The notes under the pieces were generated by a model. That model was given only the letters and a program-made list of their open reading frames with translations, was not told the origin of the DNA and did no database searches. The position numbers and the translations under genes were made by a program. Shown here one piece after another: positions 400 to 6,208 of a stretch of DNA of 54,809 bases (position 1 is the stretch's first letter; every line of letters starts with the position of its first letter). Source of the DNA: Candidatus Zixiibacteriota bacterium (lineage in GTDB: Bacteria; Zixibacteria; MSB-5A5; UBA10806); the NCBI GenBank assembly GCA_020344055.1, contig CP070813.1, forward strand, positions 708,678-763,486, read 5' to 3'.

Positions 400-1614
400 A
401 TGGCTCAAAAAAAGCTTTTTACGCGGGATGTATACGCCGAGGGGCACCTGGTCGATTCGGGCGTGATGTCGACCATCCTGGACCTGATAATCCGGTCCGG
501 CGGGCAGTTCAATATCAAATCGTTCGAGATGGGCCATACCAACATCGATAAAACCCGGACCACCATTGAGGTTTCAACGTCTACCCCGATGCTGCTCGAT
601 CATATTATTTCCCAGCTCCATCTTCACGGATGCGTGATAAAAGAGGACGTCGCGGTTTCATTGAAACCGGCACCGAAAGACTCGGTGGCTCCGGACGACT
701 TTTATTCCACCACCAACCATACAACCGAAATCAGGCTGAACGGCAAATGGTGCCGGGTAGGGGATCAACGTATGGATGCGGTGATAATCTTGGATAACGG
801 AAAACCGCAATGTGCCAAGATAAGAAGTCTGAAAAAGGGGATGCCGGTGGTGACAGGCCTATCGGGTATAAGGGTAATACCGGAGTTCAAGGAGCGGAAG
901 AGGTCGGTTTTTGAATTCATGACAGGCGATGTATCGTCTGAGAAGAAGGTCGAATTGGCAGTGGGCGAGGTTGCCTCGATGCTGCAATCGGAAAAATATC
1001 GAACCATTGTGGTAGCCGGGCCGGTGGTGGTCCATACCGGCGGGTCAGAGTCGTTGTGTTCATTGATAGAGGGAGGATACGTGCAGGGGCTTCTTTCAGG
1101 TAACGCCCTGGCCGTCCATGACATCGAGCAGGCGCTGTTCGGTACATCGCTCGGAGTGGATACGAAAACCGGAAAGCCGGTGGAAGAAGGACATAAAAAT
1201 CATATGCGGGCCATTAACGAGGTTTTTAAGCACGGCAATATTAAAAGGATGATCGAGAGAAAGGCTCTTACAAGCGGAATAATGTATACTCTTTACCGGA
1301 CTAAAACGCCCTTTGTCCTGGCCGGGTCTTTGCGCGACGACGGGCCTTTACCTGAAACTATCAATGATATGGTAGAAGCGCAGGCCGCGTATGCGAAGAT
1401 GCTGAAGAAAGCCGATCTGGTTATCATGCTTTCCACCATGCTTCATTCCATCGCCACCGGCAATATGCTTCCCTCCAGGGTGCGGACTATCTGCGTGGAT
1501 ATTAATCCATCGGTAGTAACCAAATTGGCGGATCGCGGTTCGGCGCAAGCGGTGGGGATTGTTACCGACGTCGGTTTATTTTTAAATCTACTGGCGAGAA
1601 AACTAAAAAAATAG
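400..1614 (+). CDS. ornithine cyclodeaminase, archaeal type (TIGR00300 / LOR-SDH family)
   Basis: 404 residues, matching the full length of the TIGR00300 family. The N-terminal ~100 residues are the LOR/SDH domain (EGHLVDSGVMSTILDLI, then GGQFNIKSFEMG), a fold shared with lysine-oxoglutarate reductase/saccharopine dehydrogenase. The rest is the NAD-binding region (VVVHTGGSESLCSLIEGGYV, LLSGNALAVHDIEQALFGTSLG). Characterised relatives in methanogens, and the C-terminal half of cyanobacterial AgrE/ArgZ, convert L-ornithine to L-proline with release of ammonia. I infer the same here, which would link arginine/ornithine breakdown to proline. No clear Shine-Dalgarno precedes the ATG (TAACTGTAAT), but the N-terminus aligns with the family start. 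It stands alone with no arginine genes nearby. It is unrelated to the mu-crystallin-type cyclodeaminase. Confidence 0.85.
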   Translation: MAQKKLFTRDVYAEGHLVDSGVMSTILDLIIRSGGQFNIKSFEMGHTNIDKTRTTIEVSTSTPMLLDHIISQLHLHGCVIKEDVAVSLKPAPKDSVAPDDFYSTTNHTTEIRLNGKWCRVGDQRMDAVIILDNGKPQCAKIRSLKKGMPVVTGLSGIRVIPEFKERKRSVFEFMTGDVSSEKKVELAVGEVASMLQSEKYRTIVVAGPVVVHTGGSESLCSLIEGGYVQGLLSGNALAVHDIEQALFGTSLGVDTKTGKPVEEGHKNHMRAINEVFKHGNIKRMIERKALTSGIMYTLYRTKTPFVLAGSLRDDGPLPETINDMVEAQAAYAKMLKKADLVIMLSTMLHSIATGNMLPSRVRTICVDINPSVVTKLADRGSAQAVGIVTDVGLFLNLLARKLKK

Positions 1615-1962: not shown

Positions 1963-3270
1963 ATGAGAGTCTTAACGGCAATACTCGGTATTTTCACTCT
2001 ATTTTACGCAACGGCTGACGGTCTGGCCCAGGGGACTGGATCGGCGGCGATGGAATTTCTAAACATCGGGGTAAGCGCGAAGTCCTCGGCCACGGGAGGG
2101 GCATTTTCAGCCATAGCCGACGGGCCGGTATCATCGTTCTATAATCCGGCGGGGCTCGCGTCTATTGAAAATTACCAGGTAGCCGGGATGCATACCGAAT
2201 GGTATCAGGATTTAAAATATGAATATCTCGGATGCGGAATCCCTGTCGGCAGGTCCGGGGGATTCGGAGTGTCCTTCTCATATCTCAGTTACGGTTCCAT
2301 AAAAAGCTATTCTGAGACCGGAGTTCCTACAGGCGATATACAAGCCTACGACATGGCGCTGAATCTGTCGTACGGTCACAGAATCAAGGACAGGCTACTT
2401 ATGGGATTTGGAATTAAGGGCGTCGCCGAAAAGCTGGCGGATATAAGCGTAAAAGGATTCGCCGCCGATTTCGGCATGCAATATAAAGCCTACAAATACA
2501 TGCTCGGGTTTTCGGTCATGAACTTCGGGCCCAATTTAAAGTATGAAACGGTTTCGTCGCCCCTGCCGACGACCATTAACGCCGGCGCGTCATACAAACC
2601 ATTCGGGCCGGAGTTTTCATTAATGATGGGCGGTTCTATGCCATTTCACGGGGATTTTTCGTTCAAAACGGGAATCGAATATTCATATAACGATATATTC
2701 ATGCTGAGAGGCGGTTACGATACAAGAAAAGATTATGACGGCAAAAGCGGAATCGCTCTGGGGGCCGGAATCAACGTATCCAATCACAATCTCGATTATG
2801 CTTATAACATAAACGATATAATGGGCGGAACGCATCAGATATCGTTTGTTTTTAAATTCGGGAATTCTCGCAAATCGGGGGATAAAGTGGATCCGATGCC
2901 GATAAAGCTGAATAGTATGCCGGTACAGGAAACCTATACCGGATTAAGCAATGATATATCAAAACAGGGATTAGATTCCACAGATGGGAATGATATATCG
3001 GTACAGGAAACCTACACCGAATCATCGGAGAATGAATCCGGTAACAATGCGAAGAAGTATCAAATCTGCGCGGCCAGGTATCAGAATGAGGAGTCTGCCA
3101 GAAAGCATATCAGTACATTGAAGAAATTCGGAGTGAACTCCTGGCTATTCTACGACGGATCAAAGGAATACAGGGTTGTCCTGGGCGAGACCGACAAGTT
3201 ATCCAAGGCTGAAAAAATGAAATCGAAATTTGATAAAGAAGGGGTATTCTGCTTTATTCAGGAAATGTAG
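1963..3270 (+). CDS. PorV/PorQ-family outer-membrane protein with C-terminal SPOR domain
   Basis: 435 residues, started at an ATG with GGAGG five bases upstream. Residues 1-22 are a signal peptide ending in LAQG. Residues ~25-305 are a PorV/PorQ-type (FadL-like) beta-barrel: it opens with AAMEFLNIGVSAKSSATGGA and SSFYNPAGLAS, followed by alternating strands and a terminal barrel strand ISFVFKFG. A hydrophilic linker (~306-362) with an internal duplication leads to a SPOR domain at ~363-435 (KKYQICAARYQNEESARKHI...), which in other proteins binds denuded septal glycan. The family acts in the outer membrane, some members as T9SS shuttle proteins. The fusion suggests an outer-membrane protein that also contacts peptidoglycan. 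It is followed by a good intrinsic terminator. Confidence 0.85.
   Translation: MRVLTAILGIFTLFYATADGLAQGTGSAAMEFLNIGVSAKSSATGGAFSAIADGPVSSFYNPAGLASIENYQVAGMHTEWYQDLKYEYLGCGIPVGRSGGFGVSFSYLSYGSIKSYSETGVPTGDIQAYDMALNLSYGHRIKDRLLMGFGIKGVAEKLADISVKGFAADFGMQYKAYKYMLGFSVMNFGPNLKYETVSSPLPTTINAGASYKPFGPEFSLMMGGSMPFHGDFSFKTGIEYSYNDIFMLRGGYDTRKDYDGKSGIALGAGINVSNHNLDYAYNINDIMGGTHQISFVFKFGNSRKSGDKVDPMPIKLNSMPVQETYTGLSNDISKQGLDSTDGNDISVQETYTESSENESGNNAKKYQICAARYQNEESARKHISTLKKFGVNSWLFYDGSKEYRVVLGETDKLSKAEKMKSKFDKEGVFCFIQEM
2921..3019 (+). repeat. 78-base imperfect direct repeat in the linker of the PorV-SPOR gene
   Basis: CGGTACAGGAAACCTATACCG (2921-2941) recurs as a one-mismatch copy at 2999-3019, 78 bases away, so the period is exactly 26 codons. 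AATGATATATC also recurs (2950-2960 and 2990-3000). In the protein this gives VQETYT and NDIS twice. The duplication lies between the barrel and the SPOR domain, so it changes only linker length. Confidence 0.75.
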
Positions 3271-3300
3271 TGGCTTCCTCCTTGTCTTAATATGGCTGTA

Positions 3301-3331
3301 AAATGCCTCGTTGGGATACGGGGCATTTTTT
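3301..3331 (+). terminator. intrinsic terminator of the PorV-SPOR gene
   Basis: A 10-bp stem (3301-3310 with 3319-3328, one G-U pair) with an 8-base loop is followed by a T run, 30 bases after the stop codon. Confidence 0.85.
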
Positions 3332-3354
3332 ATTGGTATTTTATAATTTTTTCC

Positions 3355-3383
3355 TTGACAGGATATTAGGAGAAAATTATTTT
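3355..3383 (+). promoter_or_regulatory. candidate sigma70-type promoter of an intergenic transcript
   Basis: A perfect TTGACA (3355-3360) and TATTTT (3378-3383) are separated by 17 bases, just after the terminator of the upstream gene. No ORF follows on this strand; the next plus-strand signal is the terminator at 3489-3522. Confidence 0.45.
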
Positions 3384-3407
3384 AAATAAGGATGGTTTAC
3401 GTTAGAA

Positions 3408-3429
3408 GATTGTGAAAATTATCACAATC
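3408..3429. promoter_or_regulatory. Rex/CRP-like palindrome
   Basis: GATTGTGA-AAATTA-TCACAATC is an 8+8 perfect inverted repeat. Its core TGTGA-N6-TCACA is the CRP consensus. The 18-base TTGTGAAAATTATCACAA differs at one position from the Rex-type TTGTGAA-N4-TTCACAA. It lies about 20-40 bases downstream of the predicted start of the 3390 transcript, where a bound regulator would block elongation. It could instead be a simple RNA hairpin. Confidence 0.45.
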
Positions 3430-3488
3430 CATAACAAAACCAGACATGGTGTGGTAGGTGGTGATTGGGTTTCTGATGTACTGGTCGA

Positions 3489-3522
3489 CCCCTCCCGCGT
3501 AAGCGGGGGGGGTTAGTTTTTT
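3489..3522 (+). terminator. orphan intrinsic terminator
   Basis: A 10-bp G+C-rich stem (3489-3498 with 3503-3512, one G-U pair) is capped by a GTAA loop (GNRA type) and followed by TTAGTTTTTT. There is no T-tract on the other strand, so it serves plus-strand transcription. The gene upstream already has its own terminator at 3301. Confidence 0.75.
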
Positions 3523-3575
3523 AACCGGTTTTGGGCGCTCTCTATTTTATACGCTTTTGTTTATCAAAAATTCTA

Positions 3576-5237
3576 TTATTTTCTTTTTCTCAAAATAAGA
3601 GACCTATCGGGATCGCGGGTTTCCCCGGCGGATGTAACATATATGGCGGCCTTTCCGGAAACCGGGCAGGCGTATTCGCAGGCGGCACACCCCGTACATT
3701 TATCGATATCAACATGGGGCAGCCGTATGTTTATTATATTTCCCTCCCTGCCGACCGTCTCGGTATCCTCCAACCAGATGGCCTTGGGCGATGTGGGGCA
3801 CCACTCCTCGCAAACGATGCATGTTGTTCCGAATGCCCATGGCAGGCATCTTCCTTTATCGAAAAACGCCGTGCCGATTTTAACGGGCGGCGGCCCCGTC
3901 TGACCGAATTTCTCGTCTGATTTCAGTTTTAGTATTGCCCCCGTCGGGCAGATCTCACCGCATAGCGTGCAATAATGCTCGCAGTATCCTATCCTGGCCA
4001 TAAGGAGGGGACTGAAAATTCCCTCCCATCCGGTTTCGAGTAACGCCGGTTGTAAGGCATTGGTCGGGCAGATTTTCATACACTGGCCGCAACGTATACA
4101 TTGTTTAAGAAAATCCTCTTCAATCAGGGCTCCGGGCGGCCGGATGAAAGTAACTTCGTTAACAAATTTATCTCCGCTTCGGATCACCGGAAACGCGGCA
4201 AGGCCGGCGATACCGGCCAGAATTGTTCGTCGGGTTGTCAGGTCCGGTTTGGGATTATACTGTTTAAAGTAAGGCTGAAATCTGAAGAACAGAGCATTTT
4301 CGGCGCACGCCGCTTTACAGTTCAAGCATAGGTGGCATTCCGCTCGTCTGTGCGGCAGGTCGCTATGCGGATCATCGCCGCCCTGACAGTGCATAAGGCA
4401 GAGGTTGCAATCGTTACATTTTTCCGGTTCTTTCTGCAATCCGAATATCGAATAACGACTCAGAATTCCCAGGAAAGCTCCCAGGGGACACAAACCCCTG
4501 CACCAGAACCGGGTAAAGATTCGATTGGCGACGAGGATTGAAAGAAATATCAGCGCCAGCCAGAAGATCCCGTGGAAATGTGGCTGTTTAAGATAAGTAA
4601 CAATTCCGGAGGAGATCTTGAAGATAGCCGCTCCGAGGAATCTGAAAATCGAATATGAAGAATCAGAAAGAGTCATGGCCAGGTCATTTACGGCGGTATT
4701 CAGCGCCGGTATAATAACCATTCCTATAGACCTTCCCGCGATCATGATAGGATCGAACAGCCCGATCTGAACCGAGCCGACTATGGCCAGCGCGATAATG
4801 CCGAAAAGGATATAATACTTCCAGGCCTGGTATCTGTGATACTTGTTTGATTCAATCAGCCTTTTGCCTTTCCTGCTTTTCCTTTCGGATTTAAAGCTCG
4901 ACATGGCCTGATTGAGGGTTCCCAGCGGGCATACCCACCCGCAGAAGAAGCGGCCGAAGAAGGCGGTGCCGGCTATGACAATTAATCCCAGAAGCAGAGT
5001 CGATAACAGAACCCAGGCGGATATGCCGGTAACGACGCCGGTAAGCGGATCGATATTGAAGAAAAGATTCAGCCATTGCGATGGCGGATTGATTTCTCCG
5101 GGTTTGCCGAAGGAGGTGAACGAAAACTCCGTAAGGTATAACAAAAAGATGAAAAGCAGCAAAAAGAAGAGTTGAGATAGCCTGCGGATATTTCTAATCC
5201 TTTTGATCTTGAGCGTGGGATCGTGCTTTTCGGCCAT
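3576..5237 (-). CDS. membrane polyferredoxin, NapH-NapG-like fusion
   Basis: 553 residues. The N-terminal half resembles NapH/MauN: about five membrane segments (~20-40, 73-95, 140-160, 170-190, 222-240) with the paired motifs FCGWVCPLG (~98) and WCRGLCPLG (~245), then two 4Fe-4S motifs (CNDCNLCLMHC at 274, CHLCLNCKAAC at 301). After an internal twin-arginine-like segment (TTRRTILAGIAGLAAFP, ~334) comes a NapG/MauM-like half with further Cys clusters: CIRCGQCMKIC (380), CEHYCTLCGEIC (419), CIVCEEWC (473) and CTGCAACEYAC (504). It probably passes electrons from the quinone pool across the membrane. The partner is the DUF362 gene five bases upstream. No Shine-Dalgarno is seen, so translation may be coupled. 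The electron acceptor is unknown. Confidence 0.85.
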   Translation of the reverse strand: MAEKHDPTLKIKRIRNIRRLSQLFFLLLFIFLLYLTEFSFTSFGKPGEINPPSQWLNLFFNIDPLTGVVTGISAWVLLSTLLLGLIVIAGTAFFGRFFCGWVCPLGTLNQAMSSFKSERKSRKGKRLIESNKYHRYQAWKYYILFGIIALAIVGSVQIGLFDPIMIAGRSIGMVIIPALNTAVNDLAMTLSDSSYSIFRFLGAAIFKISSGIVTYLKQPHFHGIFWLALIFLSILVANRIFTRFWCRGLCPLGAFLGILSRYSIFGLQKEPEKCNDCNLCLMHCQGGDDPHSDLPHRRAECHLCLNCKAACAENALFFRFQPYFKQYNPKPDLTTRRTILAGIAGLAAFPVIRSGDKFVNEVTFIRPPGALIEEDFLKQCIRCGQCMKICPTNALQPALLETGWEGIFSPLLMARIGYCEHYCTLCGEICPTGAILKLKSDEKFGQTGPPPVKIGTAFFDKGRCLPWAFGTTCIVCEEWCPTSPKAIWLEDTETVGREGNIINIRLPHVDIDKCTGCAACEYACPVSGKAAIYVTSAGETRDPDRSLILRKRK

Positions 5238-5242
5238 TTATC

Positions 5243-6208
5243 TTATATTTTCTCGATCAGCTTATAATCTTTGATTTTGCCCAATCTGCGCGATTCCGCC
5301 ATTTTCAGGAATCCGAGGGAAGCAGGTTCGAGATTCAAGAATCTACAGGAATATGAATCTGCGGCCACCTGGTCGGTGGCGAGCATAACGGTATGATGAG
5401 TTTCAACGTCCGATAACGACCCGCCGACCGGGCCATTCCGGAAAAGCACCCGGGTGGCATCCACGATAATCAGGGTGGGTCTGAAAAAGTTAGCGAGATC
5501 GGCGATAGAGGCGTCGATCTCCTGATGAAGCCGGTTCCTGGGCCCGCCAAGAACTCCATACCAGTTTTTCATCCCCGCCGTTATTTTTGTTAAATTATGA
5601 TGTTTGACCACAGGCATGTTGATAAGCTTGTCGGTTTCGAAAAACGGTCTTAAAACAGGCCATTTTCCAAGAACTTCGCCCCCCAGATCGACGTTTACAA
5701 AGCGACGTTGTTCCGGATAGATTATATCCAAGTCGATTTTTTTTGACAGGGCGCCTATGCCCGATCGAATGAAGGTACGGCGAAAGTCGTTGCAGGGAAC
5801 ATCGCTCAGAACCACTTTCGACGCTCCCGCATCGAGGCAGAGCCTCGCCACGGCCTCGATTAAAACGGGATTGGTATTGGCTCCCTGCTCGGCAGTTCGA
5901 TCCCAACCTATGTTCGGCTTTATGGTTACGATGTCTCCGCGGGAAACGAACCTGCTGATTCCTCCAATTAGTTCAACGCCCATGGCAACAGCCTCGCCAT
6001 AATCTTCAGATTTTATGCTCACGAGATCGGGATATTGGGGGTCCAAGGAAACGGACTTGTCGCAATCGACTATTACTGTAGCCTTTTCGGGCGGCTTGTA
6101 GACGTTCCTCGAAGTTAAATATCCTCCGCCGCCAAACACAACGGTCAGCAATGAGGCTTTCCCGGCTAACTTTATAAATTCCCGGCGCTTTAATTTGTCG
6201 TCATTCAT
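5243..6208 (-). CDS. Tat-exported DUF362 protein
   Basis: 321 residues; the ATG has GGAGG six bases upstream. The N-terminus KRREFIKLAGKASLLTVVFG is a twin-arginine signal, so the protein is folded, probably with a cofactor, before export. The DUF362 region covers most of the rest: VTIKPNIGWDRTAEQGANTNP, ARLCLDAGASKVVLSDVP, KLINMPVVKHHNLTKITAGMKNW (split here by commas only for reading is not intended; the last runs at ~205-227), and GGPRNRLHQEIDASIADLA. DUF362 proteins often neighbour or are fused to ferredoxins; their chemistry is not established. With the following polyferredoxin gene it forms a two-gene redox operon on the minus strand, divergent from valS. Confidence 0.85.
   Translation of the reverse strand: MNDDKLKRREFIKLAGKASLLTVVFGGGGYLTSRNVYKPPEKATVIVDCDKSVSLDPQYPDLVSIKSEDYGEAVAMGVELIGGISRFVSRGDIVTIKPNIGWDRTAEQGANTNPVLIEAVARLCLDAGASKVVLSDVPCNDFRRTFIRSGIGALSKKIDLDIIYPEQRRFVNVDLGGEVLGKWPVLRPFFETDKLINMPVVKHHNLTKITAGMKNWYGVLGGPRNRLHQEIDASIADLANFFRPTLIIVDATRVLFRNGPVGGSLSDVETHHTVMLATDQVAADSYSCRFLNLEPASLGFLKMAESRRLGKIKDYKLIEKI

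Follow-up and report, generated by a model that had tools for sequence, protein, structure and literature searches.

A predicted Rex-repressed small RNA gene in a convergent intergenic gap of a Candidatus Zixiibacteriota genome

We examined a stretch of 54,809 nucleotides (hereafter the window; contig CP070813.1, positions 708,678 to 763,486 of the forward strand) from a Candidatus Zixiibacteriota bacterium, with a focus on the gap between two convergent genes at window positions 3271–3575. A promoter, a dyad and a terminator all lie inside this gap and line up within 170 bases (3355–3522), as a preliminary description of the locus had stated. The features of the locus, including their state in the four genomes that carry the unit (G000 to G003), are the following:

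1963–3270, plus strand: gene of a PorV/PorQ-family outer membrane protein (NF033709), the upstream convergent flank
3355–3360, plus strand: -35 element TTGACA, identical in 4/4 genomes
3378–3383, plus strand: -10 element TATTTT after a 17-bp spacer; TATTAT, TATTTT or TATATT with a spacing of 16–17 in the relatives
3390, plus strand: probable transcription start (± 2), placed 7 nt past the -10 element from promoter geometry
3394–3441, plus strand: predicted 5' hairpin of the RNA, with an outer helix GGTTTACGTTA/TAACAAAACC round the transcribed operator dyad
3410–3427, plus strand: predicted Rex operator TTGTGAAAATTATCACAA, at about +21 to +38; no change in TTGTGA or TCACAA among the four genomes
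3457–3472, plus strand: conserved G-rich block GGTGGTGATTGGGTTT, with the core GTGGTGATTGGG in 4/4 genomes; presumed target-pairing region
3487–3522, plus strand: intrinsic terminator with a 12-bp stem, GTAA loop and T-run; stem kept in the relatives with other sequence and tetraloop
3576–5237, minus strand: gene of a fused NapH/NapG-like 4Fe-4S membrane ferredoxin, the downstream neighbour, near the unit in 4/4 genomes
5243–6208, minus strand: gene of a DUF362 protein (PF04015), partner of the ferredoxin gene

The promoter TTGACA-N17-TATTTT was present as described (3355–3383) with 10/12 promoter matches, a score that alone is not above chance (2 found vs 3.3 ± 2.0 in shuffles), and we accepted the unit as real because of its conservation and not because of the promoter match alone. 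The strong terminator with a GNRA loop was likewise recovered, with its stem at 3487–3514, the loop GTAA and the tail AGTTTTTT; the G001 copy has a poor T-run after the terminator. Folding of the RNA from 3389 to 3522 gave z = -5.0, much of which was contributed by the terminator. A separate hairpin with an A-run and a T-run follows the PorV gene at 3300–3329 and is possibly a bidirectional terminator.

The redox gene pair reported next to the unit corresponds to the NapGH-like ferredoxin and DUF362 genes. G000 and G001 have the unit directly beside the ferredoxin gene; in G002 and G003 a short extra gene stands between the two. These extra genes are small and lipoprotein-like (L004 934–1449 and L032 1096–1626), and the one of G002 had no match in an NCBIfam search. 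In all four genomes the operator is left without a protein gene to serve, the downstream flanking gene converging on it. Terminator prediction on the minus strand of window positions 3390–3576 gave no intrinsic terminator after the ferredoxin gene; its transcript may therefore run antisense to the small RNA. Further upstream in the window (400–1614) we observed a gene for an ArgZ-like/LOR-SDH protein with arginine dihydrolase-type C-terminal domains.

The promoter, the operator, the G-rich block GUGGUGAUUGGG and the terminator were also found in three relatives of the same GTDB family within Candidatus Zixiibacteriota, which answers the question of conservation raised in the preliminary description. 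The copies thus come to four genomes of three genera, all in the same family and the same gene neighbourhood. The segment aligned at 81% identity with the same-genus genome and over a 76-bp core with a genome of another genus, and the fourth copy, from the third genus, was found by a covariance model. A pattern scan for operator plus G-block across 84,980 species genomes returned only three relatives, all of them Candidatus Zixiibacteriota (CP070742.1, JAHEDG010000024.1 and MEWP01000006.1). The covariance model rebuilt from the four sequences recovered, among 132 genomes of the phylum, the known copies and one weak match, judged to be another palindrome; the unit was not found in other families among these 132 genomes. 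Matches of the covariance model outside the family (G049, G024, G053, G088 and others) either had no G-block or were other palindromes or terminator hairpins, and were rejected. One of these genomes, G053, which belongs to a different family of the class, has a pair of exact or near Rex-like palindromes about 70 bp apart (L012 1501–1620). G004, the fifth member of the family, is 69% complete; it encodes Rex, but no copy of the small RNA was detected in it.

Conservation was distributed in blocks. Against G002, from another genus, the -35 and -10 elements were 100% identical, the operator 94% and the G-block 89%, vs 29% for the promoter spacer, 38% for the linker and 13% for the part downstream. 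All four copies combine TTGACA, a 16–17 bp spacer, TAT[AT][AT]T and a palindrome that starts 24–26 bp past the -10 element. To judge from these alignments, such block-wise conservation is the trace expected of a functional transcription unit.

The perfect 8+8 palindrome was confirmed as the dyad GATTGTGA-AAATTA-TCACAATC at 3408–3429, with an 18-bp core at 3410–3427. Rex is a sensor of the NADH/NAD+ balance, and one Rex is encoded in the genome (NF003995/NF003993 above cut-off), as well as in G001 to G004. The published Rex operator consensus is the 18-bp palindrome TTGTGAANNNNTTCACAA (PMC6391272); the operator in the window matches it at 13/14 fixed positions, with A for T at position 12, and the G003 operator, TTGTGAA-GCAT-TTCACAA, matches all of them.

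We also searched the genome for the same palindrome upstream of redox genes, as had been proposed, and found it there. Exact TTGTGA-N6-TCACAA sites numbered three in the 3.83 Mb genome (0.26 expected): the first in the small RNA gene and the others upstream of rex and of the alanine dehydrogenase gene (ald), respectively. The rex site lies 48 bp ahead of the point where the Rex domain match begins; a matching site is present upstream of rex in each genome with the small RNA, 6 bp past the rex -10 element in G000 to G002. Sites with one mismatch precede nuoA, vorB, hdrA, qmoC/sat and hdrC, and those at rex, ald, nuoA, vorB, hdrA and qmoC/sat recur in G001. The total of 12 sites with at most one mismatch (9.5 expected by composition; 1 for a reversed control pattern) is not by itself enrichment, and it is the position and conservation of the sites that carry the argument. 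The genes that carry the motif here include Rex-typical targets, namely rex, nuo, sat and oxidoreductases. Since rex is preceded by a perfect site, the predicted regulon is Rex-typical and the substitutions are Rex-like, we assign the operator to Rex; there is good comparative evidence for this prediction.

The preliminary description had left the regulator as Rex or a CRP/FNR-type protein and had suggested looking for homologues of both. Both kinds are present, as the genome encodes two clear CRP/FNR homologues besides Rex, the gene of one lying about 2.3 kb from rex. TGTGA-N6-TCACA is the CRP consensus as well, so that the operator could belong to a CRP/FNR-family regulator to which the small RNA would answer; the site of the small RNA, taken alone, fits that consensus. 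At ald, vorB and qmoC (L035, L038, L042, L053, L057, L059) the site ends at a fixed distance of about 6 bp before a TTGNCN-17-TATNNT promoter and is centred near -51, upstream of the -35 element as an activator site might lie, but a centre near -51 is not among the usual CRP activating positions, as applies at ald and qmoC. This placement is unusual for a simple repressor and may reflect a different mode of action of the regulator, even activation. In the small RNA and rex genes, by contrast, the site follows the -10 element, a repressor position, and one perfect site precedes rex itself, both of which argue against CRP/FNR. The half-sites themselves point the same way: TTGTTA, in which a CRP half-site would lose its key G, is tolerated at qmoC/sat and hdrA, and these conserved half-sites mean that the G is not intact across the regulon. 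The same substitution occurs in published Rex sites, which include TTGTKA and TTGTGAAAAAATTAACAA (PMC6018154). We therefore retain Rex from the original pair of candidates and keep CRP/FNR control as the main rival, although an unlikely one.

A further reading takes the palindrome as only a stem of a structured RNA, which would be constitutive or otherwise regulated, with the Rex match a coincidence. When the 5' part was folded alone, the dyad formed the hairpin tip in 4/4 RNAs, and one hairpin pair was changed on both sides in G002. Covariation among the four sequences was nevertheless not above that of shuffles (134/500), the twelve operator bases are invariant in the four genomes while flanking helix positions vary, and the sequence is found again before rex, ald and further redox genes. 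In this comparison the operator appears constrained as a binding site for a protein would be, and we consider a stem-only palindrome very unlikely; the operator may have a second role in RNA structure. We discarded a hairpin/G-block switch, which the minimum-energy fold of the window copy had suggested, as neither G001 nor G003 keeps it.

The one claim that did not hold was that the segment contains no ORF, as a GTG-started frame of 34 codons spans 3412–3516 and overlaps the operator and the G-block. That this open frame encodes a small protein is hardly credible and was rejected: the GTG, being part of the palindrome, stands in the same place in the relatives, but the frame is broken by an indel in the same-genus relative and is therefore unlikely to be a gene, its predicted products are unrelated beyond the G-block, and by eye no ribosome-binding site lies at a proper distance. 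The preliminary description was right on the unit and nearly right on its control.

The best explanation of the locus, and in our assessment a probable one, is that a sigma-70-type promoter drives a trans-acting small RNA of about 130 nt, whose gene would be repressed by Rex and induced by NADH. The segment has its own promoter and terminator, is a conserved unit and contains no conserved ORF. The promoter, operator, terminator and conservation, together with Rex and its predicted regulon, are supported by sequence and comparison. From these we infer transcription, repression and base pairing with mRNA, as follows. At high NAD+, the operator (about +21 to +38) would be occupied by Rex, which would block RNA polymerase. 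With rising NADH, Rex would leave and transcription would run to the RNA's own terminator. The RNA would consist of a 5' hairpin (the transcribed operator), the conserved G-rich block and the terminator hairpin. The G-rich block would most likely pair with C-rich stretches of mRNAs, thereby adjusting energy metabolism.

The G-block is a natural candidate for pairing with mRNA. Its predicted accessibility is moderate only, with a mean unpaired value of 0.26–0.59. When three to four genomes were searched by pattern for its complement, with 1/12 and 2/14 mismatches allowed, no site close to a start codon was shared between orthologues. By eye, GGUGAU is partly complementary to the 16S 3' end (AUCACC). 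Hfq was not detected in this genome, which is 90% complete.

Small RNAs under redox control are well known from both enterobacteria (FNR/Arc) and Firmicutes (Rex, RoxS). The FnrS/ArcZ-type RNAs of enterobacteria are oxygen-responsive and use FNR/ArcA and Hfq. The predicted RNA resembles them as a stand-alone small RNA under a redox regulator, and differs in that the regulator would be Rex, no Hfq was detected and no Rfam match was above threshold. No Rfam family scored above its gathering score, and the sub-threshold matches (PyrR site, STnc230 and frnS) were judged to be due to chance. We consider the unit a putative new, lineage-restricted small RNA family, of a kind, the Rex-controlled small RNA, that is already known.

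With the Rex regulons of Gram-positives and Desulfovibrio, the predicted regulon shares the operator consensus TTGTGAANNNNTTCACAA (PMC6391272, PMC6018154) and a site upstream of rex, and differs in that some sites lie upstream of the -35 element. According to work cited in PMC6018154, sat is a Rex target in Desulfovibrio vulgaris, which is similar to the site that precedes qmoC/sat here.

In the literature we found, a small RNA is described as a member of a Rex regulon only for RoxS/RsaE of Firmicutes. In RoxS of B. subtilis the Rex site lies immediately downstream of the start and the RNA is repressed by Rex (PMC5419742), and the layout described here therefore has experimental precedent. Like RoxS/RsaE of Bacillus and Staphylococcus (PMC5419742), the unit is a putative small intergenic RNA gene with its own promoter and terminator and NADH-linked control, here predicted, and it has a predicted Rex site just past the start, 24–26 bp past the -10 element in the four genomes, with the start placed from the promoter. 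The RNA is unrelated to RoxS/RsaE in sequence and belongs to another phylum; the Rfam RsaE model was not among the matches up to E = 1 in window positions 3200–3700. RoxS pairs by C-rich motifs, whereas the conserved block here is G-rich. We lean slightly towards a Rex-repressed small RNA that evolved independently outside Firmicutes, in a lineage without detected Hfq, in which the transcribed operator doubles as the 5' hairpin and a G-rich, not a C-rich, block is active. If this is true, control of a small RNA by an NADH sensor would be a recurrent design and not a peculiarity of RoxS/RsaE. An uncultured phylum would gain a concrete regulon and small RNA family, in genomes with sulfate adenylyltransferase and qmoC. 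A Rex-controlled small RNA in Candidatus Zixiibacteriota, with unrelated sequence and the operator in the same place as in RoxS, would suggest that NADH status has been coupled to RNA regulation by convergence.
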